A stretch of DNA of 64,000 nucleotides from Phycisphaerales bacterium (lineage in GTDB: Bacteria; Planctomycetota; Phycisphaerae; Phycisphaerales; SM1A02). How positions within the stretch are numbered: position 1 is the stretch's first letter; each line of letters starts with the position of its first letter. The stretch spans positions 1 to 64,000 of the forward strand of contig JAKVBQ010000015.1 of NCBI GenBank assembly GCA_022447205.1, in the 5' to 3' direction. The notes beneath the pieces are model-generated. The model saw only the letters and a list, made by a program, of their open reading frames with translations, made no database searches and had not been told where the DNA came from. This document shows, in pieces, positions 21,123 through 33,706 of this stretch. The position numbers and the translations under genes were made by a program.

Positions 21123-22565
21123 TCAGGGTGCCCAGCCGCCCAGAACCAGTGACAGGTCGGAGCCGCTGACCGAACCGTCGCCATCGATGTCCCCCGGACA
21201 GTCGCCGCACGCTCCCCAGGAACCAAGGAGGATCGCGATGTCGGCACCATTCACGCGTCCGTCCCGGTCGAGGTCGGCGAGGTCATGGAAGGTCAGTTCG
21301 AGCTCCGCCGTGGTGGTGCGTCCGCGCTTTCCGGTCGAACTGGCATGGCTGTCCGCCCACAGTCGGTATGCCCCGGGTGGGAGTTCGATCTCGACCGAGT
21401 CACATTCCGTGCCTTCACTCTCCAGGAATGAATAGTAGAAGGACTGCTTGGTGGCGGGTTCCCAGACCCGGATCTCGGTGAAGCCGGAATCGGCATCGGT
21501 CGCCTCGTCGCCCGGATAGGGGTGCTGCGAGGAGTCGTGGCAGCTCCGGATGTCGATGGTGGACGCTCGCTGGAGTTGGAAGTCGAAGTCGTAGTAGATG
21601 TCCGACTGCCATGCCAGGTAGCAGAGGCCCGCGTTCGTGTCGCCGGCGGTCCTCGTGGTGGCCTCCGACGTCAACAGGATGACGTTGCCGTTCGCGATGC
21701 CCCGCGTAGCCGTGCTGCAACGGTTCCTGTCGGCATCGACCGAGTAGCATGACCCGTCCTCGTCACCTTCGAATGAACGGGAGAAGAAGCTCGGAAGGTC
21801 CTCGTAGCTCTCCGTGAGCTGGGTCTCGTCATGACTCGTCGATTCGGCGGGGAACTCACCGGTGAAATCCTGCTGGACGAAGACTCCGATGCCATCGAAG
21901 ATCGTCATGGAGGGAACGGGTCGTGCCTGGAGCGAGATCTGGAGCTCGGTCGATGATCCGCAGTTGCAGCTGGATCCGGCATCGAACTCGAACGTGAGTG
22001 TGTAACTTCCCGCTGGCAGCATCCGCTCGTAGAACCCGCAGCTGGTTCCATCCATCGTGCTCGAGGCCCAGATCTGCGTCACGACGTCGCCGGTCGCGGT
22101 GTTGGTCAGGAGCGCCGAACCGGAGCTGTAGGTGCTGCCCATGTCGTAGTAGTCGCTGTGGTATCCGGTCTTGCAGGTCTCGAAGCGGACGTGGGCATCG
22201 CGGAGGATCGTGAAGGACACCACGGTGTCGTTGTTGCTGTAGGCGTAGATGTATTCGCCGAAATCCTCGTTGCCGCCGGCCTCGGTTCCGGTGGTGACCA
22301 CGAATCCATTCTCGAAGATGGAACCCTCCGTCGATGAACTCAGGTTTCCGAAGAGCTGGCAGTCCGCTGTCTCGTCGATCGTGATCGGGAGTTCGGCGAA
22401 GTCATCAGCGGAATCGCTGTACGAGTCGCCGTCGTTGCCGCAGCTCGACTGGAAGTAGCCGGAGATCTCCGATGTCATGGAGTCGACCTGCAGCACATCC
22501 CCGGCCATGGCGGAGGAGGCGGCAATGAGCAGGCTCATGGTGGTGTTCGTCGTCGAGTTCAGCAT
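21123..22565 (-). CDS. secreted duplicated-module protein with dockerin-like tail
   Basis: A 480-residue exported protein with an AAGGG ribosome site and signal peptide (MLNSTTNTTMSLLIAASSAMA). It contains two divergent copies of one beta-rich module: both have an acidic Asp/Glu-Asp-Cys start, a C-x(5-6)-G/A turn, a T-x-Y/F-D-F or V-V-S-F strand, an R-x-C pair (ILRDAHVRFETC and LQRASTIDIRSC) and end in an L-P-(A/P)-G-(S/A)-Y strand (ERMLPAGSYTLTFEF and EIELPPGAYRLWADS). The Cys pairs suggest disulfides, fitting an exported location. The shape resembles pre-peptidase/PPC-like or carbohydrate-binding beta-sandwiches. Two dockerin-like loops (DLDRDGRVNGADIAILLGSW, DIDGDGSVSGSDLSLVLGGW) finish it. 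Ligand unknown. Confidence 0.7.
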   Translation of the reverse strand: MLNSTTNTTMSLLIAASSAMAGDVLQVDSMTSEISGYFQSSCGNDGDSYSDSADDFAELPITIDETADCQLFGNLSSSTEGSIFENGFVVTTGTEAGGNEDFGEYIYAYSNNDTVVSFTILRDAHVRFETCKTGYHSDYYDMGSTYSSGSALLTNTATGDVVTQIWASSTMDGTSCGFYERMLPAGSYTLTFEFDAGSSCNCGSSTELQISLQARPVPSMTIFDGIGVFVQQDFTGEFPAESTSHDETQLTESYEDLPSFFSRSFEGDEDGSCYSVDADRNRCSTATRGIANGNVILLTSEATTRTAGDTNAGLCYLAWQSDIYYDFDFQLQRASTIDIRSCHDSSQHPYPGDEATDADSGFTEIRVWEPATKQSFYYSFLESEGTECDSVEIELPPGAYRLWADSHASSTGKRGRTTTAELELTFHDLADLDRDGRVNGADIAILLGSWGACGDCPGDIDGDGSVSGSDLSLVLGGWAP

Positions 22566-22721: not shown

Positions 22722-23606
22722 TCAGCCCGGTTGGTTCCCGTTCGGGGGTCCCTCATCCGGTAGCTCGAGAAGGAACCGTTTCGCCGATCGAGGTTCCTCT
22801 TCCAGGAGCACCAGGTATTCCTCTTCGTCGGAGAGGAAGCACTTCAGCCACGTGAGGGCGATCCGGCCGACGTCGCCATCGGCATTCGTCGGACTGTAGG
22901 CGAGTGAATGCGAACCGTCGCGGACTTCGTAGTAGAGCCGGGGGGTGGTGTCCGGTGTCTTCCTGAAGTGGACCAGTGCATGCATGCTGGGTGGTGCCGG
23001 GGTGTCATCCTCACCGGCGAGGATCATCACCGGGACCGGATGATTGAAGGAGTGACCCGGTTTCCAGGGGCACAAGGCCAGCACCACGTCGAGATCAGGA
23101 TCCTGGACGGCCGCCTGTTGTGCGCCACCTCCACCCATCGACCAGCCGCCGACGCCGATGCGTTCGGTGTCGAGTCTGCCGTTCAGGGGAGACTCCTTCC
23201 GTGTGTTCTCCGCCTCCAGCGTGGTCACTGCATCGAGGAGTGCATCCGCCCGGGCTTCCGGCATCGCATTCCGCTGGTTGGTGCCGATGGTCATCGTCAC
23301 GATGCCGTGGGATGCCAGGAACGGTCCCCATCGACTGACGGAGCGTTCCGATGCCATGAAACCGGGGACGATCACGATGCCCGGCAGGGGGCCTTCGGCA
23401 TCGGTCGGGTAGTGAATCGTCGCGCCGTCGTAGCCGGGCCCGTTCCGGATGCCGTCGCGTTCCCTCAGTTTCGCCGTCTCATGGGGGCCCGATCCGGTGA
23501 CCGATGCCTTCAGCCGTCCGATTCGATCGTCCTGGGCCGAGTCCTGTCCATGAAGAGGACTCGTTGCGAACAGGAGACACGTGACAAGACCCGTGAGAGG
23601 ACGCAT
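22722..23606 (-). CDS. secreted PETase/cutinase-like polyester or lipid hydrolase
   Basis: A 294-residue exported alpha/beta hydrolase (signal MRPLTGLVTCLLFATSPLHGQ). It matches, from memory, the whole core of bacterial cutinases and Ideonella PETase: IVIVPGFMASE (oxyanion residue Phe83 where PETase has Tyr87), RWGPFLASHGIV, GGWSMGGGG with nucleophile Ser156, CPWKPG (Trp181, equivalent to the PETase wobbling Trp), AGEDDTPAPP (Asp201) and DGSHSLAY (His233). Trp155 before the serine and Ser234 after the histidine are the PETase-type choices rather than the His/Phe of thermophilic cutinases. The two cysteine pairs of PETase are missing. It probably cleaves polyester, cutin-like or lipid esters. 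Last gene of a three-gene operon, 10 bases after the upstream stop. Confidence 0.85.
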   Translation of the reverse strand: MRPLTGLVTCLLFATSPLHGQDSAQDDRIGRLKASVTGSGPHETAKLRERDGIRNGPGYDGATIHYPTDAEGPLPGIVIVPGFMASERSVSRWGPFLASHGIVTMTIGTNQRNAMPEARADALLDAVTTLEAENTRKESPLNGRLDTERIGVGGWSMGGGGAQQAAVQDPDLDVVLALCPWKPGHSFNHPVPVMILAGEDDTPAPPSMHALVHFRKTPDTTPRLYYEVRDGSHSLAYSPTNADGDVGRIALTWLKCFLSDEEEYLVLLEEEPRSAKRFLLELPDEGPPNGNQPG

Positions 23607-23616
23607 GATTTCTCGC

Positions 23617-25536
23617 CTATCGGCCACGTCGCTCACCACCGTTCTTCTTGTTCGGGTCCTCCGGCGGGGTCTTGCCTCGTCTTCTCGGAAGAGCTTCGGC
23701 GCACTCCATGCCGGTGAGGAGCGCTTGCAGTCGGCTGTCGATCTGCTCGTCGACTGCACCGAACTGTTCTGCACCTGGCTCCCGCCAGCCGGAGACACCG
23801 ATTGGGACACTGCTCTTTCGTCCGAGCATGCCGTCGATTCTCGCCTGTGCAATCCTTGGTTCGGTGGCCACTCGGATCTGGATCGCCTGCATCCTGATCG
23901 GCTCGAGTTGCGCCGTGAGATCCGAGGCATATTGAAGGACGGTGTTCCTGCGTTCCTCGTCCAGGTCCTCGCAGGATTCCACGGCGGAGATCGCATGCTC
24001 GCTCCAGCGCGTGCGCACCTGCGGTGCGAATCCCTGTGCCCTGGCGATTCGGGAGAAGCGTCCCGCAGCTTCCGGATCCGACTTCGCGATCATCCCCTCC
24101 AGTTCCGACTGTCCGGCGATCAGGCGGTCCCTGATCGAGATCGCCGCGCTGAGTTCGCTTCGCGCCCGTTGTCCGTGGTTCTCGGTGAGGTTCCTGATGC
24201 CTGAATCGTCTTCATGTCCGTAGGCGACGAAGAGTTCAAGTCCCGAGCGTTCGCGATCCATGCGTGCGCTGTTCCATCGGTCGACCAGTTGGAGCAGCTC
24301 GACCATCGCCGCATCCAGCGAGTCGCGGGTCTCCTCGCTCATCATCGTCTCCCCGAGTGCCTCGCGGATCGCGAGTTCGAGGTTGATGCGCGAGCCGCCC
24401 AGCTTGGAGTCGATCCTTGCCTGTTCGAGGATGAAGCTGTCGAAGATCCCATCCAGTGCCTGTCGCTGTTCTTCGTCGAGAACAAGCACCATGCTCCGGA
24501 CCAGATCCTCGCGCATGCCCCTGCGGTCCGCCTGGAGCGCCTTCGCCAGCTTGAGCGCCTGCTTTCCATCCTGCGGCGTCGCGACCGCCCGGTCGAGATC
24601 GACTCGGCGCCTGTCGATCGCCTTACGGATGGCGTTGATCGATCCCTCGAAACGGTCGACGGCATTCGCCATCCGGACCTGTCTCTCCCCGTCCTCGATC
24701 TTCTCGTCGATCCTGTCACGCATCTCGGTCCAGTCGATCGTCGAACTCACCATGTCGAGGGTGGTGTTCGCTTTCTTGACCCTGGCCAGCATCGTCTCCT
24801 TGCCGTATCGCGTTCGTGCGGCACGAATCGCATCCTTCAGTTCCTCGGCCCTGCGTTCGTAGGTGGTCACGTAATCCTGCAACAGGGTCTCGATGATCGC
24901 ACGGGTCGCTTCGTCCAGTTCCAGCTCCCGAGAGAAGAACTTCAGGTCACGCATCAGGAATTCCGGCCTGATCAGGGTCCGAACGTCGCCCGCATCGGGG
25001 ATTCGAAGTCGGATGGGTGCGAGATTCCCGGTTCGATCGGCATCAAGCATTCGGTCCGACCAGTCGACACCGTCGTTCTTGAACTTGTGGAAGAAGCGGA
25101 CGTCGATGACCTCGAGCCATGTCGAGAGTGCTTCGCCACGCGAGATCGAACCTGTGTAGTGGAGATCGATGATCTCCTCCCTGAATCCCGCGAGTTCATC
25201 CTGCTGCTGGTTGTCCTCGTAGCCATCGAGGTAGATCGCCATCCCGACGTCCGGGCTCAGGGCGTCTTCGGCGGCGGCATAGAGTTCCTTGAGTTCATCG
25301 ATGCCGATCTCGGAATCATCGAGGAGTGCGGCAAAGGCACGAAGGCCGCCTCCAAAGTCCTCGAGCAGCTGTTCGTCCTCCGCCGGCTGGTCGGCCTCCT
25401 CTTCCGGCCGGTCCTCCTCCTGTGCATGAACCAGCACGCAGGAGATCAGCAACAGCGCGATCATCATGACCCGGCAAGCGTGTCCCTGGAAGGGGTGGAA
25501 TCGGGAGCGTGCCGTCTTCAGCTCGTCTGCCGTCAT
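23617..25536 (-). CDS. secreted helical/coiled-coil protein of unknown function (paralogue B)
   Basis: A 639-residue protein of unknown family. An export signal is likely internal to the N-terminus (VMMIALLLISCVLVHAQ, about residues 23-39), preceded by a basic stretch. The rest is almost entirely charged helix, rich in Glu, Arg, Asp and Leu. It is a full-length paralogue of the upstream gene: shared landmarks include RPEFL-RDL, LDEATR-IIE-LL-DYV, FILEQ-R-DSKLGGSRI, RERSGLELFVAY, QGFAPQVRTRWSE, and a late GWREPG-x(5-6)-DEQ-(I/V)-D segment. The C-terminus is Arg/Lys/Gly-rich. The start overlaps the upstream stop (ATGA), so the two paralogues are translationally coupled. Function unknown; a periplasmic scaffold or binding role would fit the composition. 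Confidence 0.75.
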   Translation of the reverse strand: MTADELKTARSRFHPFQGHACRVMMIALLLISCVLVHAQEEDRPEEEADQPAEDEQLLEDFGGGLRAFAALLDDSEIGIDELKELYAAAEDALSPDVGMAIYLDGYEDNQQQDELAGFREEIIDLHYTGSISRGEALSTWLEVIDVRFFHKFKNDGVDWSDRMLDADRTGNLAPIRLRIPDAGDVRTLIRPEFLMRDLKFFSRELELDEATRAIIETLLQDYVTTYERRAEELKDAIRAARTRYGKETMLARVKKANTTLDMVSSTIDWTEMRDRIDEKIEDGERQVRMANAVDRFEGSINAIRKAIDRRRVDLDRAVATPQDGKQALKLAKALQADRRGMREDLVRSMVLVLDEEQRQALDGIFDSFILEQARIDSKLGGSRINLELAIREALGETMMSEETRDSLDAAMVELLQLVDRWNSARMDRERSGLELFVAYGHEDDSGIRNLTENHGQRARSELSAAISIRDRLIAGQSELEGMIAKSDPEAAGRFSRIARAQGFAPQVRTRWSEHAISAVESCEDLDEERRNTVLQYASDLTAQLEPIRMQAIQIRVATEPRIAQARIDGMLGRKSSVPIGVSGWREPGAEQFGAVDEQIDSRLQALLTGMECAEALPRRRGKTPPEDPNKKNGGERRGR

Positions 25537-27497
25537 TGCTTGCCGCCTGCCTTGCCTCCTGAACGACCGCTTCCGCCGTTCTTCCCCCCGGATGCACCCT
25601 TGCCGCCCGCGCCCTTGCCGGAGCCCTTGCCGCCGTCACCCTTGCCCTTCGCGTCCTCTGGCGCCTTGGGCTCGATCGCTCCGGGTCGGCGTGGCAGGGA
25701 TTCAGCGCAGGCGAGACCCTGCAGGAGGGAATCGAGCTGCATGTCGACCTGGTCGTCGAGCACTTCGAACCGATCGACGCCGGGCTCCCGCCACCCGGCG
25801 AGGCCGAGTGAGTCGCCCGCTTCATCGGTGATGTCCCGGATCTTCTCCCGAGCGATCCTCGGTTCGACGTCCATCCTGTCCAGGATGGCCTGCATCCTGA
25901 TCGGTTCGAGCTGCTCGGAGACAGCCGATTCGTATTCGATCAGGACATCTCGGGCATCCTCGTCGAGGTCGGCACATGCCAGAGCGGATGCCAGGGCGCG
26001 TTCGCTCCACCGGGTTCTCATCTGAGGCGCGAATCCCTGCTCTCGGGTGGTGGCGACGAATCGGCGAGCCACCTCCTGGTCCGAACCGGCAAGCACGGTC
26101 TCGAGTTCCGACTGGGCTGCGAGGAGTCGATCACGAATCGCGATGGCGGCATTGAGTTCACTCGTCGCGCGTTGTGCATGATTCCTCGCCATTCGTTCCG
26201 CGCCCGGTTCGCCGCTGCGTTCGTAGGCGACGAAGAGTTCCAGCCCGGAACGTTCCCGGTCGATGCGTGCATTCGTCCACTGATCCACGAGCTGCAGGAC
26301 CTCGCCCGTCGCTTCTTCCAGGGTCTCCCTGGTGCCGTCGTCCATCGGTCGGTCCTCGAGCGACAGTTCAAGGGCGCCCTCGAGATCGATCCTGGAGCCG
26401 CCCAGCTTCGAGTCGAGCCGACCCTGTTCGAGGATGAACTGGTCGAAGATCGCCTCGAGCGCCTCCTTCTGACGGTCGTCGAGGACCAGTCGAATGCTCT
26501 CGATCAGTTCGGCCCGCATCCTGGGGCGTTCCGCCTGGAGGTTTGCAGCGAGCCTGAGGACGTCCGGCCCCTCTGGTGCCGATTCGATCGTCCGATCCAG
26601 CGAGGCATGTCGTTGTTCGATCGCCTGCTGGACGTTGGGGAGCGTCTCCGCGAAACGGTCGATCGCGGCGATCATGCCTGCCTGCTTCTCTCCGTCACCG
26701 ATGCGTTCGGCGACCCGGCTGCGAGCCCGGTCCCAGTCGATCGAGCCTGCAAGGTCGTTGAACATCGTTCGTGCCCTGTCGACTTCGCGGATTCTCCACT
26801 GTCGTCCTGCTCGGCCTCTCGATTCTCGAATGGCGGAGCGAAGCTCCTCGGTTCGCTGTTCGTAGGTGTTGACGTAGTCGTCCAGGAGCAGCTCGATGAT
26901 CGACCGCGTCGCCTCGTCGAGTCGGAGTTCACGACCGAAGTACTGCAGGTCACGCCTGAGGAATTCCGGTCGGGTGAGCACCCTGACGTCGCCGCCGTCG
27001 GGTATGCGCAGGTGGATCGACGCCATGCGTCCGTTCCGGGCGGCGTTCTCGAGCCGGTCGCTCCAGTCGTTCTCCTTCCCGTCCTCGGTTTCCTGGCCCT
27101 TCCCGCTTTCGTCCATGACGGTCATCCACGTCGACAAGGCGTCCTCCCTGGATATCGAACCGTTCATGACCGCGTCCTTGAGCTCGCCTCCGAACGCATC
27201 CAGCTCCTCCTGCTGCTGGTTGGCCTCATAGTCCTCGAGGTAGATCGCCATGCCCTCGTCGCTCTTGTCGGGGAAGAGTGCATCGGCAGCGGCCCCGTAG
27301 ATCTCCCTGAAGTTGATGTCGGGATCCTCCAGGGTCCAGCCGACTGCCTTGAGTCCGGATCCGAAGTCCTCGAGCATCTGTTCCTCGGCGGTCGACTCCC
27401 TCTCGTCATCCTGCTCCTGGGCCAGGCTGATCATCGACGTGATCCCAAGGATCCCGAGGGCGAGGAGGGAGAAGAGAGAACTGGATCGGATTGCCAT
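25533..27497 (-). CDS. secreted helical/coiled-coil protein of unknown function (paralogue A)
   Basis: A 654-residue paralogue of the next gene, first of the operon. The start at 27497 has an AGGAG ribosome site 9 bases upstream and opens a signal peptide (MAIRSSSLFSLLALGILGITSMISLAQ); a further 14 codons upstream are open but spoil the signal. After an acidic stretch (EQDDEREST) come long amphipathic helices, including LEDYEANQQQEEL, RPEFLRRDLQYFGREL, FILEQGRLDSKLGGSRI and GFAPQMRTRWSER. Its distinguishing end is a 40-residue low-complexity tail of Lys, Gly and Ser (KGKGDGGKGSGKGAGGKG and similar), strongly basic, which could contact anionic polysaccharide or the cell surface. No catalytic motif seen. 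Confidence 0.75.
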   Translation of the reverse strand: MAIRSSSLFSLLALGILGITSMISLAQEQDDERESTAEEQMLEDFGSGLKAVGWTLEDPDINFREIYGAAADALFPDKSDEGMAIYLEDYEANQQQEELDAFGGELKDAVMNGSISREDALSTWMTVMDESGKGQETEDGKENDWSDRLENAARNGRMASIHLRIPDGGDVRVLTRPEFLRRDLQYFGRELRLDEATRSIIELLLDDYVNTYEQRTEELRSAIRESRGRAGRQWRIREVDRARTMFNDLAGSIDWDRARSRVAERIGDGEKQAGMIAAIDRFAETLPNVQQAIEQRHASLDRTIESAPEGPDVLRLAANLQAERPRMRAELIESIRLVLDDRQKEALEAIFDQFILEQGRLDSKLGGSRIDLEGALELSLEDRPMDDGTRETLEEATGEVLQLVDQWTNARIDRERSGLELFVAYERSGEPGAERMARNHAQRATSELNAAIAIRDRLLAAQSELETVLAGSDQEVARRFVATTREQGFAPQMRTRWSERALASALACADLDEDARDVLIEYESAVSEQLEPIRMQAILDRMDVEPRIAREKIRDITDEAGDSLGLAGWREPGVDRFEVLDDQVDMQLDSLLQGLACAESLPRRPGAIEPKAPEDAKGKGDGGKGSGKGAGGKGASGGKNGGSGRSGGKAGGKQ

Positions 27498-28791: not shown

Positions 28792-29376
28792 TCAGAAGCC
28801 GACTCCGGGCTTCGTGCCCTGCTTGGTCATGTCCGCGACCTCGGTCCAGACTTCCCGGCCGGTACGCATGTTGGTGAGGGTGAGCCGGAAGCTGTAGGTG
28901 GTCTGCTTCATTCTGCCCGCACTGGCACGGAGCTGGGTGATCTTCCCGGTCAGGGCGAAGTCGGGATCGAACGCCTCGGCGGTCGTGCCTTCACGGAAGG
29001 CCTGGCTCCTGAGGGCTTCCTGCGCAGCCCTCGATTCCGGGTCGTTGCCGTACGAGGTCTCGACCGTGGCCTGTCCCGAGTTGACGAGTTGTGCCCGCAT
29101 TCGCATCAGGAGTTCATCGATGTCGAATCGGGTGCTGGTCGCGTTGGTCACATTGTCGACCACCACGCGTGCGGGCTGATTCTTCGCCTGCTTGAGGACG
29201 CCGTTTGAGATCAGGGAGTCGAGCAGGTCACTGCTTGCATTCAGGATGTCCTGTATGTTGACCTGGTCGACGTTGACGACTGACTGTGTTCCACCGGTCT
29301 CGATGTAGGTGGCCTTCTGGCCGCAGCCTGCGCCAACCAGGGTCAGTATGCCGATCATGAAGAATTTCTTGGTCAT
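28792..29376 (-). CDS. LpoB-family outer-membrane lipoprotein
   Basis: A 194-residue lipoprotein; MTKKFFMIGILTLVGAGC carries the lipobox with Cys18. It follows the LpoB pattern: VDQVNIQDILNASSDLLDSL, RVVVDNVTNATSTRFDID, an acidic/Gln middle and a terminal YSFRLTLTNMRTGREVW strand. In gammaproteobacteria LpoB activates the peptidoglycan synthase PBP1b from the outer membrane, and its fold is related to CsgG. Whether that partner exists here is unknown. An AAGGAG ribosome site is clear. Last gene of a four-gene envelope operon. Confidence 0.85.
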   Translation of the reverse strand: MTKKFFMIGILTLVGAGCGQKATYIETGGTQSVVNVDQVNIQDILNASSDLLDSLISNGVLKQAKNQPARVVVDNVTNATSTRFDIDELLMRMRAQLVNSGQATVETSYGNDPESRAAQEALRSQAFREGTTAEAFDPDFALTGKITQLRASAGRMKQTTYSFRLTLTNMRTGREVWTEVADMTKQGTKPGVGF

Positions 29377-29411
29377 CCGGGGTATCTCCTTGGGTGACGA
29401 TGGTTGGGTGT

Positions 29412-29825
29412 TCAGTTCGATCGACGGACCTGGATGGTGAAGTCCGTCGCGGAGTCATTGGGTGCGACCGAGCTCAGGGTGGTCGAGCCGCCGGACGCCA
29501 CGGAAGCCGACTTCCATGTCGAGGCCTGGGTCGGGATCACGTTGCCTCGTTCATCGAGCCACGTGAACTTGTACGCGAAACCTCGATAGCGGAAGTCATC
29601 GTTCGCGACGTCGACTTGTGCCTGCAGAGGTCCACCCTTCGAGGGAAAGACCCTGACGTCCGTGCACTTGATGAAGAAGCTCGACAGAAGATCGTTGATC
29701 TGTTCGCGGAGCGGTTGCACCGAGTCATCGGGTGCCGTGGTCCGCGTGCTCACGGTGTTCACCGATCCGCATGAAGCCATGATGAGGGCGGTCAGGCCCA
29801 GTCCGTACAAGACGCATCGTTTCAT
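29412..29825 (-). CDS. YcfL-family (DUF1425) lipoprotein
   Basis: A 137-residue lipoprotein with signal MKRCVLYGLGLTALIMASC (Cys19). The body has the YcfL pattern: an early L-x-x-(Q/E)-V-D-V-(A/x)-N segment, RGFAYKFTWLDERGN in the middle and a TLSSVAPN-SATDFTIQVR end. YcfL proteins are usually encoded next to LpoB, as here. An AAAGGGG ribosome site is present and the start overlaps the upstream stop (ATGA). Likely periplasmic face of the outer membrane; exact function unknown. Confidence 0.8.
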   Translation of the reverse strand: MKRCVLYGLGLTALIMASCGSVNTVSTRTTAPDDSVQPLREQINDLLSSFFIKCTDVRVFPSKGGPLQAQVDVANDDFRYRGFAYKFTWLDERGNVIPTQASTWKSASVASGGSTTLSSVAPNDSATDFTIQVRRSN

Positions 29826-31282
29826 TGAGTCACCCCTTTCGGGTCGTCTGGAACTGCATTATTCGGGGTCTTCCGCCCAGGGTTCCTGCCGCTGAGCTGG
29901 ATCGAGTCGATTGCCGCACGTGGCGCTGCAGTCGAGGGTAGCGTGACCACCACCAGGTTGCATTCGCCAGGTATGACACTCGTAGTGCCGAGTGAACGTC
30001 CGGATGCGGTCGAGAGCGTGAGCTTGCCCGAATCGGGTGTGAGTGTCCGCGCGACGAGAATCTGCTTCGGAAGTGTGCGCCAGCTGCGCAGATCCGCGGA
30101 AGTCGTCGCGGCCTGATAGAGAATCCCCGCAAGCTGTGCGTACTCGCCGGCGGATTCCCTGGCTGCCCAGGTCGCTGCCGCCTTGGTCGCCGAACTGGTG
30201 ATCTCCTGAAGGATGATCGTGGGCAGCCGGACGGAGAATTCACTCCCGACAACATCATCCATGTCGACGAGGAGGCTCCCTCTTGCGTTTGCATCCTGCC
30301 CGGCTGCGACATCGAGCGTGTCTGCGGGGTTCGGGGTGGTTTCAAGGCGGGGGAATGCCGCCGATACGTAGTTGACATTGCCCACAGGAATCGGGATATC
30401 CAGCCGGAACTCCTCGAAATGCGCCACTTCGCCAGTCATGAAGTAGACCCATGTCGTTGGTGGTTGTGCCTGGGTCCGGTTCTGGAGCACGGCAAGATCT
30501 GCGGCAAGTGCGGGGAGGCAGGCCGGGTTCATCTCCGCGGCCTGGCGCAATTCGAATTCGGCATTGCTCCGGTCGCCCGGGCCCGAGCCACATGCCATCA
30601 GGTAGATGCCACGCAGATGTGATGCGAACGGATTGCCATAGTCGCCATAGCCTGAGAGGTCCTCGAGATTCGCGTAGAAGGAACGCATGTACTCGGGGAC
30701 TCCGTCCGGCAGGTCTTCGTCGAGATCCTTCTTTCTCGCCTGACTCCGGATCTTCTTCTGGGCAGCCTCGATCTGGCTTGCGTACCGGTCGCTTGCATCC
30801 TCCTGCCAGTCGGCGGCCCTGTTCAACTCGATCCTGGCCAGGTCCAGGTCCCCGAGTGCCAGGAAGTTGATGGCATTCAGACTGGTGCTCATGATCCGTT
30901 CGCCGGGGGTGGCCTTGTAGGTCGACATGGCCTGGTTGACCGCAGTGGTCACGATCCCCTCGGTGATGCTGTCTTCCGCCTTGTTGCTGAGGTACGGACG
31001 GGTGTCCTCATAGACGGCGTCGTAGTAGGTGCTGCTGGCCTCGTGCTTTCCGGCGACCTGGGCGGTCCGGGCTGCCTCGAGGTTGTAGATCACACGTTCG
31101 GTTTCGTCATTCTGGTTGCGTTCCGCACCCTGTGCACTGAGTGATGCCGCGAGCGGGTAATCCCCTGAGGTGTACGCCGCGACCACGGAAGTGGTGTGCG
31201 ATCGGTAGGCGGATTGACAGCCGGTGCCTGCAGCGAGCAGGAGGGTGAGCATGCTGTAGGCGTGCTGTCTTGGTCCCGGCAT
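29822..31282 (-). CDS. COG3014-type lipoprotein with TPR-like helices
   Basis: A 486-residue lipoprotein with signal MPGPRQHAYSMLTLLLAAGTGC (Cys22). The N-terminal half has TPR-like alpha-helical pairs (YTSGDYPLAASLSAQG, YNLEAARTAQVAGKHEASS, SLNAINFLALGDLDLARIELNRA). This is the hallmark of the COG3014 proteins that are encoded with LpoB and YcfL in marine gammaproteobacteria. The C-terminal half has a beta-rich region ending LIVVTLPST-like. The function is unproven; it may scaffold the LpoB-like lipoproteins. It overlaps the YcfL gene by 4 bases and follows the CsgG-like gene after a 58-base gap holding a hairpin. Confidence 0.75.
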   Translation of the reverse strand: MPGPRQHAYSMLTLLLAAGTGCQSAYRSHTTSVVAAYTSGDYPLAASLSAQGAERNQNDETERVIYNLEAARTAQVAGKHEASSTYYDAVYEDTRPYLSNKAEDSITEGIVTTAVNQAMSTYKATPGERIMSTSLNAINFLALGDLDLARIELNRAADWQEDASDRYASQIEAAQKKIRSQARKKDLDEDLPDGVPEYMRSFYANLEDLSGYGDYGNPFASHLRGIYLMACGSGPGDRSNAEFELRQAAEMNPACLPALAADLAVLQNRTQAQPPTTWVYFMTGEVAHFEEFRLDIPIPVGNVNYVSAAFPRLETTPNPADTLDVAAGQDANARGSLLVDMDDVVGSEFSVRLPTIILQEITSSATKAAATWAARESAGEYAQLAGILYQAATTSADLRSWRTLPKQILVARTLTPDSGKLTLSTASGRSLGTTSVIPGECNLVVVTLPSTAAPRAAIDSIQLSGRNPGRKTPNNAVPDDPKGVTQ

Positions 31283-31303
31283 GTCTTGAGTCCATACAGG
31301 AGA

Positions 31304-31327
31304 CCACCCGACCTGAAGGCCGGGTGG
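31304..31327 (-). terminator. inter-cistronic hairpin (attenuator or terminator)
   Basis: CCACCCG and CGGGTGG separated by 10 bases, between the stop of the CsgG-like gene (31341) and the start of the COG3014 gene (31282). It may reduce read-through, so the downstream three lipoproteins could be expressed at a different level, or it could protect the upstream message. Confidence 0.4.
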
Positions 31328-31340
31328 ATCTGGGCAGTCG

Positions 31341-33476
31341 TCAGTTGTTGTCGATCAGCTGGTTCCAGAACGTTGGAGTATTGATGTTGAGTGTTCTCAG
31401 CTGTGAAGTGTCGATCGTCATTCGACTGTTCCTGAGGAACTCAGCGAGCGCTTTCGCCTTCTCGAGTTCGGCTTCGCGAAGGACGGCTCCGTCCTTCAGT
31501 GACTCGAAGAAGCGCGTCTGTTCCATCCAGCGGGCACGACCTTCCACGGAGAGTGCCATTGGAATCGGAATCGGGTCCATGTTGGGGCGGGCGTTGACGA
31601 AGTACTCCATCGGTTCGAGCATCGGTCGTTCGATCGTCACTCGGTGGGCACCCCGTGTCATCATGATCGGTCCGGGCGCGCTTCCTGCGAGGACGCCGTC
31701 GACCTTGACCGTACAGGTCAGTGGCTGGAGCTGGTATCGGTTCGCGCCGATCACGTAGTCGCCGTTCTCCTGCTTCGTGATCTCAGGGACACTGAGATCG
31801 GCAAGTGCGATGTTGAACCTGACCTCGACCATGTCGTCGGACACGGAGGGCCGTCGTGTACCGGGAGCTGCCATTGCCATCCGGACCTGTTGGCCGATCT
31901 GGTTGGCGTCATCTCGGAGCAGGGTGTCCACGTTGAAGGTCCTGGTCTGGTTTTCGGTGTTGCGGATGCCATCTCGTGCCTGCGCGATACCGGATGCGAT
32001 GCTGCCTCCGGTCCCTCCGTCGAGCACGTTCCAGGTGACGTCAAGGGTGTAGAAGATGTTGTCGTAGTTGCCGCGCTGGGGATCCCTGACTTCCCGACGG
32101 TCCTTGACCAGGGAGGTGATCGTCGCGACGACGAGTCCGTCCGCGCCGAGGAGTCTCGAGAGCCCGACGGCGGAGCTCTGGTCGGAAAGCACTCGTTCCG
32201 ACATGGTCTTCATCGGATCACCGGTGCCCTTGTTCGCGCCGGCCTTCGAGAAAGCACTGACCGCGTTGAGGACTTCCGCCCGGTTGATGACCTCGATCTG
32301 GCGATTCGTCAGCCAGGACGTGATGTAGGCTTCCAGAACCGAGACCTTGGCATCAGGGACTTCAGGTGAGACATCACGAATGAAGAGTGCGAGTCTGATC
32401 GGCTCTTCATCACCTGATGCGGTGCTGGTGTCTGTTACGCGTTCAGGCGTTTCGCCAGTCGTTGCAGTGGTCTCAGGCGACGTGGCGCTTTCATTCGCAC
32501 GGGTGTTCCCTGCGGTGTTGGTGGCCGTTCCGCGGGCCTTGTCGTCCGGGTTCACGCCATCGGGCAGCCCGTTTGGACTGAGGCGCATGATGGCACCCTT
32601 CTCGATCCCGAAGTCCTGAATCGCCTGTGCCGTGGAGAACTTGGGAAGGACTGAAGTGACTTGCGCCCATCCGATGGGGATCTCTTCCGAACCAAGGGAC
32701 TCGCCGGTATCCGGATCGATCAATTCCTCGCCGGCAAAGAGGATCTGCCAGTACTGGCCGACCTCGACTCCGGTGCCCTCGCCTCGGTTGAAGGTGATGT
32801 TGCCGATGGTGTACGCAAGGACCTTCGCTGGAACCAGGACGTTCATGATCCGATTGGCGGACTGGGTTGCAAAGGACTTCGTGATCTTGCCGATCAGGGC
32901 GTTGGTGGGGCGACCCTGCTGTTCCACGCCGGGAAGGATCTCGTTGAGGGAGGAGTCCTCGATCGTGATCGTGGCGGCATTCAGGAGGACCCCGGTGGTC
33001 GTGTCGTAGATCTTGATCGTCGCCTGGAGCTGGATCGTCCTGCGTTCGGCAGGAGAACTGCCAAAGCCACCTTCAAGCACGGTCCGCTGTGCGATGTCCT
33101 GGTAGTTGTCCGCGGTGACCGTGGCGACATAGCGAGCGCCCGCCATGTTGAATGCCCGTGCGATCTGGGGATCTGCTGGGTTCACGTCTCCGGATTGACC
33201 GATCGCCTGTTCCTTGAGAATCGTCCGGTAGTCGGACCGAGCAACGATGTCGAAGCGGCGCGTCTGAGTGATCGCGGACATCAGCAGGCCGTCCGATCCC
33301 TGCAGGATCTGCTCGAGGACGTTGAGCTGCCCTTGTTCACGCGCCTGCCTTTTCACGGCATCGGTTGCGTTGATGTCCTGGATCGCGAGCCGTGGCTTTT
33401 CGACCTGGGCTGTCGCGGGCATGGTGATGAATGCAGCCAGGATCAGGGTGATCACGCGTGCGATGTTCGTCTTCAT
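31341..33476 (-). CDS. large exported CsgG-like protein with PEGA-type C-terminus
   Basis: A 711-residue exported protein; the start at 33476 opens signal MKTNIARVITLILAAFITMPATAQ. Residues about 25-215 match a CsgG-like domain (KPRLAIQDINATD, RFDIVARSDYRTILKEQ, AFNMAGARYVATVTADNY). Next is a FlgT-C-like beta barrel (about 225-300: GVEVGQYWQILF, DTGESLGSEEIPIGWAQV), then a Thr/Glu-rich linker, a second CsgG-like domain (about 375-570: VISVLEAYITSWL-type helix, RLLGADGLVVATITSLV) and a PEGA-like domain (VKVDGVLAGSAPGPIMMTRGAHRVTI). It lacks a lipobox, unlike true CsgG. It heads the operon with COG3014, YcfL and LpoB proteins, so it probably works in the same outer-envelope assembly. Domain limits are approximate. 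Confidence 0.8.
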   Translation of the reverse strand: MKTNIARVITLILAAFITMPATAQVEKPRLAIQDINATDAVKRQAREQGQLNVLEQILQGSDGLLMSAITQTRRFDIVARSDYRTILKEQAIGQSGDVNPADPQIARAFNMAGARYVATVTADNYQDIAQRTVLEGGFGSSPAERRTIQLQATIKIYDTTTGVLLNAATITIEDSSLNEILPGVEQQGRPTNALIGKITKSFATQSANRIMNVLVPAKVLAYTIGNITFNRGEGTGVEVGQYWQILFAGEELIDPDTGESLGSEEIPIGWAQVTSVLPKFSTAQAIQDFGIEKGAIMRLSPNGLPDGVNPDDKARGTATNTAGNTRANESATSPETTATTGETPERVTDTSTASGDEEPIRLALFIRDVSPEVPDAKVSVLEAYITSWLTNRQIEVINRAEVLNAVSAFSKAGANKGTGDPMKTMSERVLSDQSSAVGLSRLLGADGLVVATITSLVKDRREVRDPQRGNYDNIFYTLDVTWNVLDGGTGGSIASGIAQARDGIRNTENQTRTFNVDTLLRDDANQIGQQVRMAMAAPGTRRPSVSDDMVEVRFNIALADLSVPEITKQENGDYVIGANRYQLQPLTCTVKVDGVLAGSAPGPIMMTRGAHRVTIERPMLEPMEYFVNARPNMDPIPIPMALSVEGRARWMEQTRFFESLKDGAVLREAELEKAKALAEFLRNSRMTIDTSQLRTLNINTPTFWNQLIDNN

Positions 33477-33706
33477 CGTTGTCGCCACTCTTTCCGTAGT
33501 GTCAGAAACGTCCTTGACGGTGCGTTTCTCATGGATGTTCGTGTTCGGACCAGGGGCCGGAAGAACCTGATCGTCATTGGAGTAGGTTAGATCATGCAAG
33601 ATGGCTTGTCACCCTGATGAGCGTCGCTCGATTTCGTGCGTACCCGGCAATGGCGGCGGGTCACGCCAGGCATTACCGCCCCCACAACACTTCGGATGCA
33701 GGAACC

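Follow-up and report, generated by a model that had tools for sequence, protein, structure and literature searches.

Tandem exported helical proteins beside a PETase-like hydrolase in a Phycisphaerales genome: probable distant LTXXQ relatives and cousins of proteins encoded at the start of the type II secretion operon

An arrangement of a lipase-specific foldase, a lipase and type II secretion is known from Pseudomonas, and the LTXXQ superfamily (PF07813, with Spy, CpxP and ZraP, and the related CnrX) groups exported, all-helical proteins with one module per chain. The part of PMC8546600 drawn on here describes Spy as a periplasmic chaperone that holds its clients in a dynamic ensemble, and Spy is reported there to suppress the aggregation of outer membrane proteins. 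Here we analyse a window of 64,000 nucleotides from Phycisphaerales bacterium (assembly GCA_022447205.1, contig JAKVBQ010000015.1, positions 1 to 64,000), in which three genes of the minus strand encode two tandem paralogues and a PETase-like hydrolase (Table 1). Each paralogue is probably a chain of three tandem LTXXQ-related modules, and a sister type of these proteins is encoded first in the type II secretion (gsp) operon in the same genome and at nearly all of the family loci inspected. This near-constant neighbourhood is a more interesting fact than the three-gene unit itself.

A preliminary description, made from the sequence alone, had presented the locus as an operon of two paralogous exported proteins and a hydrolase, and its coordinates agree with ours. 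The two paralogues are full length (654 and 639 residues), the stop codon of paralogue 1 (TGA) and the start codon of paralogue 2 (ATG) overlap in an ATGA, and 10 bases separate the stop of paralogue 2 from the hydrolase. The paralogues are identical in 312 of 626 aligned columns (50%). By eye, all three proteins begin with a hydrophobic stretch that has a signal-peptide-like end, which fits the export proposed earlier. The helical and highly charged character noted there is also found, as the AlphaFold2 model of paralogue 1 consists of helices only and its core holds 75 Lys or Arg against 126 Asp or Glu, and so is the Lys/Gly/Ser tail of one paralogue (paralogue 1, 48 residues with 10 Lys or Arg, four Asp or Glu and 19 Gly). 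The three genes are probably one co-transcribed unit; a promoter and terminator scan found no excess over shuffled sequence and nothing on the strand of the operon.

In the same genome, the sister type (G000:C25, 491 residues, L144:2256-3731) lies 80 bases before a gene with T2SSE (PF00437) and MshEN domains, which is followed by genes assigned by Pfam to T2SSF, T2SSG and T2SSK. The profile of this protein has matches in 176 of the 181 genomes of the window's family (E ≤ 1e-30), a search that also catches a second, EF-hand sister type; the gsp-linked type itself is present in at least 149 of the 181, counted among the matches listed as those starting within the first 25 profile positions. Of the 30 loci with the best scores, 29 have a co-directional gspE gene downstream, and the remaining locus is cut by a contig end 17 bases past the match; gspE follows likewise in all 18 further loci from the family, giving 47 of 48. 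These 48 are the higher-scoring places and hence biased to closer relatives. In the own genome the gene (the L004 open reading frame) has no Pfam match, and its almost constant gspE neighbourhood is a new and checkable fact regardless of function. Literature searches on LTXXQ proteins and type II secretion in planctomycetes turned up no paper that appears to describe gsp-linked LTXXQ-like genes.

Across the order, the same profile has matches in 102 of 201 genomes (E ≤ 1e-5), 35 of them outside the window's family, and one place was inspected in each of 22 of these 35. In family f2, gspE-gspF follows the paralogues in 12 of 14 loci, plus G042 and G046, and two or three such open frames stand in a row in 11 of the 12. 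The pair is also found in the single f3 locus and in none of the five f4 loci, so that, G042 and G046 aside, the other families together give 13 of 20, with one to three tandem frames. The f4 tandem pairs (L195, L196, L198, L199) resemble one another in their surroundings, which contain no gsp genes and, by eye, a ribonuclease III-like gene. A phylum-wide search with 15 distant paralogues, drawn from the own and related genomes, reached only five of 246 genomes at 1e-10 (the own genome and four of one f2 genus), suggesting a superfamily that is possibly restricted to a few of the order's families.

The window paralogues are cousins of the gsp-linked proteins and not gsp-linked themselves. They share the three-module plan and a signal-like start by eye, and the two profiles match at 99.7% probability (also at 99.3%); the gsp-linked type, often tandem in f2, heads the secretion operon, whereas the window pair heads the esterase gene and paralogue 1 carries the Lys/Gly/Ser tail. 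The EF-hand type (L145:5864-7879, which is G000:C52; L017, L018, L020, L021, L023, L026) has Gly/Arg-rich repeats around its helical modules. An EF-hand-like loop near the C-end is matched by EF-hand_1 at E ≤ 1 in eight of the 15 distant paralogues (best 1.7e-4).

The paralogues have no significant match in Pfam, NCBIfam or the PDB sequences, in line with the earlier label of an unknown family, yet they can be placed by profile comparison. We aligned a 40-sequence family alignment (some places are in it twice) by hhalign with 24 planctomycete LTXXQ segments; PF07813 was found in 32 of 119 genomes of the phylum, and 24 of 30 loci were used, omitting six that were partial or below the cut-off. 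The alignment places motif 1 and motif 2 in the right order, and motif 2 again at residues 579-602 (Table 1); in the relatives the motif letters are mostly LxLD and LLTxEQ. The probabilities are 3.5, 11 and 19% at full length and rise to 10, 27 and up to 52% for single modules, against at most 1.8% in forward-against-reversed controls. More distant members give a second, converging line. The paralogue family matches the 15 distant paralogues at 99.9% (E 3e-36), and these in turn match LTXXQ at 92% (motif 1 only) and at 90 and 80% (whole modules), with reversed controls at most 3%. The gsp-linked type gives 94, 64 and 19%, with reversed controls at most 2.1%. Distant kinship of the modules with the LTXXQ superfamily (Spy/CpxP/CnrX) is supported but below family thresholds, and we consider it likely. 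Because the Pfam cut-off is missed, the paralogues are filed as distant relatives and not as members; they differ further from the described proteins in that each chain has three modules where those have one, along with inserts, a basic tail and no conserved His or Cys. In place of "unknown family", the paralogues may be labelled "distant tandem LTXXQ/Spy-like".

Other candidates were dismissed. SbsC_C (0.033), apolipoprotein E (0.036) and YjgA (0.029) are weak, scattered matches to the paralogues, and the 16 Pfam families listed for 11 aligned members were taken as chance because each is matched by a single member. Tandem LTXXQ-like genes that carry no Pfam assignment were seen upstream of gspE, in one to three copies, at L144, L146-L193, L194, L200-L204, L207-L213, L142 and L143. 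Among single-module LTXXQ loci of other planctomycetes, two of 30 have a GspE-like gene within the 1.5-kilobase flank (L127, L129).

The predicted fold points the same way. In AlphaFold2 models built with seven sequences, module A (residues 179-360) superposes on CnrX over 103-109 of 106-109 residues (Z 5.5-5.9, root-mean-square deviation 3.0-3.9) and module B over 109 of 111 (Z 10.5, deviation 2.5); the comparison covered modules A and B. We take the hairpin fold of CnrX to be that of Spy. CnrX is distinguished from other matches only by covering the whole solved domain, and the matches to alpha-actinin, SMC and BAR proteins were set aside, as a judgement, as partial matches to long helices.

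The order of the three genes was compared in relatives. In a sample of 61 genomes that includes the own genome, the paralogue search (E ≤ 1e-5) finds 16 and the hydrolase search 14. Among the 181 family genomes (E ≤ 1e-30), the paralogue family is detected in 35, one of which (G172) is a weak match and possibly the sister type, the hydrolase in 15, and both in ten (G000, G001, G033, G095, G160-G165). The two share a contig in G000, the own genome, and G001 only, which are both genomes of this genus retrieved by the search. G001 has all three genes in the same order and retains both the ATGA overlap and the 10-base gap, so the proposed operon stands there, but it is not seen elsewhere among the 181. 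The neighbours of single-copy members (L044-L050) have, by eye, no partner in common. Amino-acid identities between the two genomes are 0.68, 0.58 and 0.68 for the three genes in order, and the agreement at fourfold third bases is 0.53, 0.51 and 0.48, where composition alone predicts 0.33, 0.31 and 0.33; these sites are 70-78% of the way to chance agreement. Because synonymous sites have diverged so strongly, both tight junctions look kept and not merely recent. In a tree of 35 rows, the four proteins of the genus form one clade (100/100) in which each paralogue pairs with its counterpart in the other genome (98/95 and 100/99), which implies a single tandem duplication, later than the separation of their line from the others in the tree and earlier than the split of G000 and G001. 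The three-gene unit belongs to the level of the genus: "operon" holds but "dedicated system" does not generalise, because no other of the 181 family genomes shows the order and the parts lie apart there.

We tentatively favour, at somewhat less than even confidence, the reading that the paralogues are Spy-like chaperones, exported and associated with type II secretion, which in this locus were duplicated and joined to a single secreted esterase; we infer the chaperone activity, the role of the esterase as client and its export by type II secretion. Several helical cradles in a row would bind periplasmic proteins that are unfolded or on the way to export, in a Spy-like manner, and a holdase for proteins awaiting export there would be the simplest role for an exported three-module chain. 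Because the commonest member of the superfamily heads the gsp operon, its natural clients would be proteins leaving via type II secretion. In this genus, one such gene would have undergone tandem duplication and become joined, probably within a single transcription unit, to the PETase-like esterase, the probable preferred client of the pair. The unit seems to resemble the Pseudomonas arrangement in logic, not in descent: a helical exported protein is encoded beside a secreted lipase-like enzyme in both. The paralogue family differs from the lipase-specific foldase (Lif, PF03280) in not being restricted to hydrolase-bearing genomes, and PF03280 has no match in it at E ≤ 1. More doubtful is a wider proposal, that an unnamed triple-module Spy-like family supplies Phycisphaerales with built-in type II secretion chaperones or accessory factors, encoded in one to three tandem copies at the start of the gsp operon, extra copies of which are coupled as dedicated chaperones to single secreted enzymes, here the PETase-like esterase. 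If true, it would name a large unannotated protein superfamily of Phycisphaerales tied to type II secretion, allow a simple test of the way in which these bacteria prepare enzymes for export, and supply a natural helper in the production of a polyester-type esterase from a planctomycete.

Several results weigh against the chaperone reading. At the sequence level, paralogue 1 scores 12.6 bits against LTXXQ in the search of its own genome (cut-off 24.3), no LTXXQ match appears in the paralogue family at E ≤ 1 in Pfam, only two of the 15 distant paralogues have one (best E 0.32), and neither the family profile nor that of the distant set finds a Spy or CnrX chain in the PDB. The letters of the LLTxEQ..LPRR motif are degenerate at the C-end of both window paralogues. 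The models, all-helical, are modest (mean predicted local distance difference test score of 63.8 for the whole of paralogue 1 and 77.3 for residues 366-612), Foldseek returns nothing for either at E ≤ 0.001, unrelated helical bundles can reach such Z values by the structure tool's own warning, and SMC and alpha-actinin coiled coils reach Z as high. As to gene context, gspE is absent from the flanks at all 37 loci (29 places) of the Lys/Gly-tail family and at all 10 loci of the EF-hand type, and conservation of the operon rests on two genomes. The flanks of 36 paralogue loci, mostly 1.5 kilobases a side, represent 29 distinct places, one being the operon of G001 itself with its flank ending before the hydrolase; the hydrolase occurs in none of the 28 places outside the genus.

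The strongest rival, to which we give nearly equal weight, is that the paralogues serve the envelope in a general way, Spy-like or structural, and that the esterase gene simply happens to follow theirs in a single genus, with no functional partnership. Beyond the genus the genes occur apart: eight of the ten genomes with both have them on different contigs (in draft assemblies, some with short contigs), and the 14 hydrolase loci of other genomes include a single one, that of G001, which holds a paralogue. The gene after the esterase also differs, since in G001 a methyltransferase follows 13 bases after the hydrolase, whereas in the window the gene of a 480-residue protein lies between. Co-occurrence counted by genome is significant (p = 3e-5, for genomes that are not independent) and weak when counted by genus (the paralogue family in three of four hydrolase genera versus 10 of 41 others, p = 0.066). 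What speaks for a functional coupling, and against mere neighbourhood, is that the ATGA overlap and the 10-base gap were kept despite the divergence at fourfold sites.

An improbable alternative is that the paralogues are surface proteins, attached by the basic tail to a polymer or to the cell itself, which keep the hydrolase in place. The proteins are exported by sequence and a basic, usually Gly-rich tail could bind acidic polymers or surfaces. We compared 30 tails, one of which is cut by the locus end and one mis-split (its true end is also basic); in all of the other 28, Lys and Arg outnumber Asp and Glu in the stretch that follows the conserved LP.R motif, and Gly and Ser are abundant in most of them. 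However, the tail and the family mostly occur without the hydrolase, no binding domain was found in the Pfam and NCBIfam searches, and the Gly/Lys repeats are missing from window paralogue 2 and its G001 counterpart. The basic tail is thus a mark of the family, untied to the hydrolase, because it also marks members in genomes that lack the enzyme. The earlier proposal of a binding or scaffolding module, taken as a conserved and dedicated unit, is not borne out by the family genomes, in which the parts largely occur apart, and nothing found here speaks for a polyester- or lipid-attachment system. Periplasmic metal binding or sensing of the CnrX or ZraP type is very improbable: among matches that span an entire solved domain CnrX is the best, and it binds metal through His and other side chains, but no column of the 40-sequence alignment has His or Cys at 50% or more, paralogue 1 has three His and two Cys in total, and a Spy-like role is favoured over metal sensing because of this lack of a conserved column.

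The third gene was correctly described as a PETase-like hydrolase, the name referring to polyethylene terephthalate (PET). It matches Pfam PF12740 ("PET hydrolase-like") at 1.5e-54 with 185.6 bits, against a cut-off of 28, and its best solved relative is 7pzj (273.9 bits, E 1.8e-80; the next scores 168.6), which is PET30 of Kaistella jeonii (PMC8767016). The triad was placed by alignment to solved relatives, and the F-M-W cleft (Table 1) is listed for several PET-hydrolysing enzymes in Table 3 of PMC8767016. The hydrolase and PET30 both have the Ser-Asp-His triad and lack the active-site disulfide cysteines of IsPETase; only PET30 has a C-terminal Por sorting domain, and the F-M-W cleft belongs to the hydrolase here. 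For functional marine PETases, the part of PMC12224614 drawn on here gives an M5 motif comprising a Ser-helix with GGGG and Met, [PG]G[YF], an aromatic clamp, the triad and a C-terminal DxDxR(Y)xxFxC, and reports measurable PET activity only with this last element; Planctomycetota and Phycisphaerales are among its carriers of M1-M4 enzymes. By eye, and spacing rules aside, the hydrolase has all M5 elements but the C-terminal DxDxR(Y)xxFxC, which is absent, the position reading FLSDEEEYLVLLEEE, without Arg, Phe or Cys. Under the motif scheme, it would at best be placed in M4, as a "pseudo-PETase", a placing that is not final because PET30, its closest solved relative, is reported to be PET-active (PMC8767016). 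We would call it a putative secreted esterase and assign it no natural substrate. The tannase family PF07519, to which MHETase presumably belongs, was sought as a sign of a PET catabolic setting; it gave no match, and as the control was likewise silent this is uninformative.

Table 1. Features of the three-gene locus (window positions; residue numbers are those of the named protein)
Feature	Position	Strand	Length	Remarks
Paralogue 1	27497-25533	minus	654 aa	Exported, helical; probable tandem LTXXQ-like modules and Lys/Gly/Ser tail
Probable signal peptide, paralogue 1 residues 1-26	27420-27497	minus		By eye
Module A, paralogue 1 residues 172-366	26400-26984	minus		CnrX-like hairpin by predicted fold (179-360)
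LTXXQ regions of module A, paralogue 1				Motif 1 at residues 182-220, motif 2 at 308-353, by profile alignment
Module B, paralogue 1 residues 367-492	26022-26399	minus		Whole CnrX matched
Module C, paralogue 1 residues 493-606	25680-26021	minus		C-end is the LLTxEQ..LPRR motif region (579-602)
Lys/Gly/Ser tail, paralogue 1 residues 607-654	25536-25679	minus		Family hallmark
ATGA stop/start overlap, paralogues 1 and 2	25533-25536	minus		Kept in G001
Paralogue 2	25536-23617	minus	639 aa	Plan as paralogue 1; short tail without Gly/Lys repeats
Hydrolase	23606-22722	minus	294 aa	Exported PETase-like (PF12740) alpha/beta hydrolase; S156, D201, H233; F83-M157-W181

Two further observations concern the surroundings of the locus. 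The 480-residue protein between the hydrolase and the methyltransferase (21123-22565, minus strand) is exported, and its end resembles, by eye, a dockerin-type pair of calcium loops. On the other side, positions 28792-33599 of the minus strand hold a series of exported or lipoprotein genes, which we take to resemble the LpoB/YcfL/CsgG-type cluster of other bacteria.

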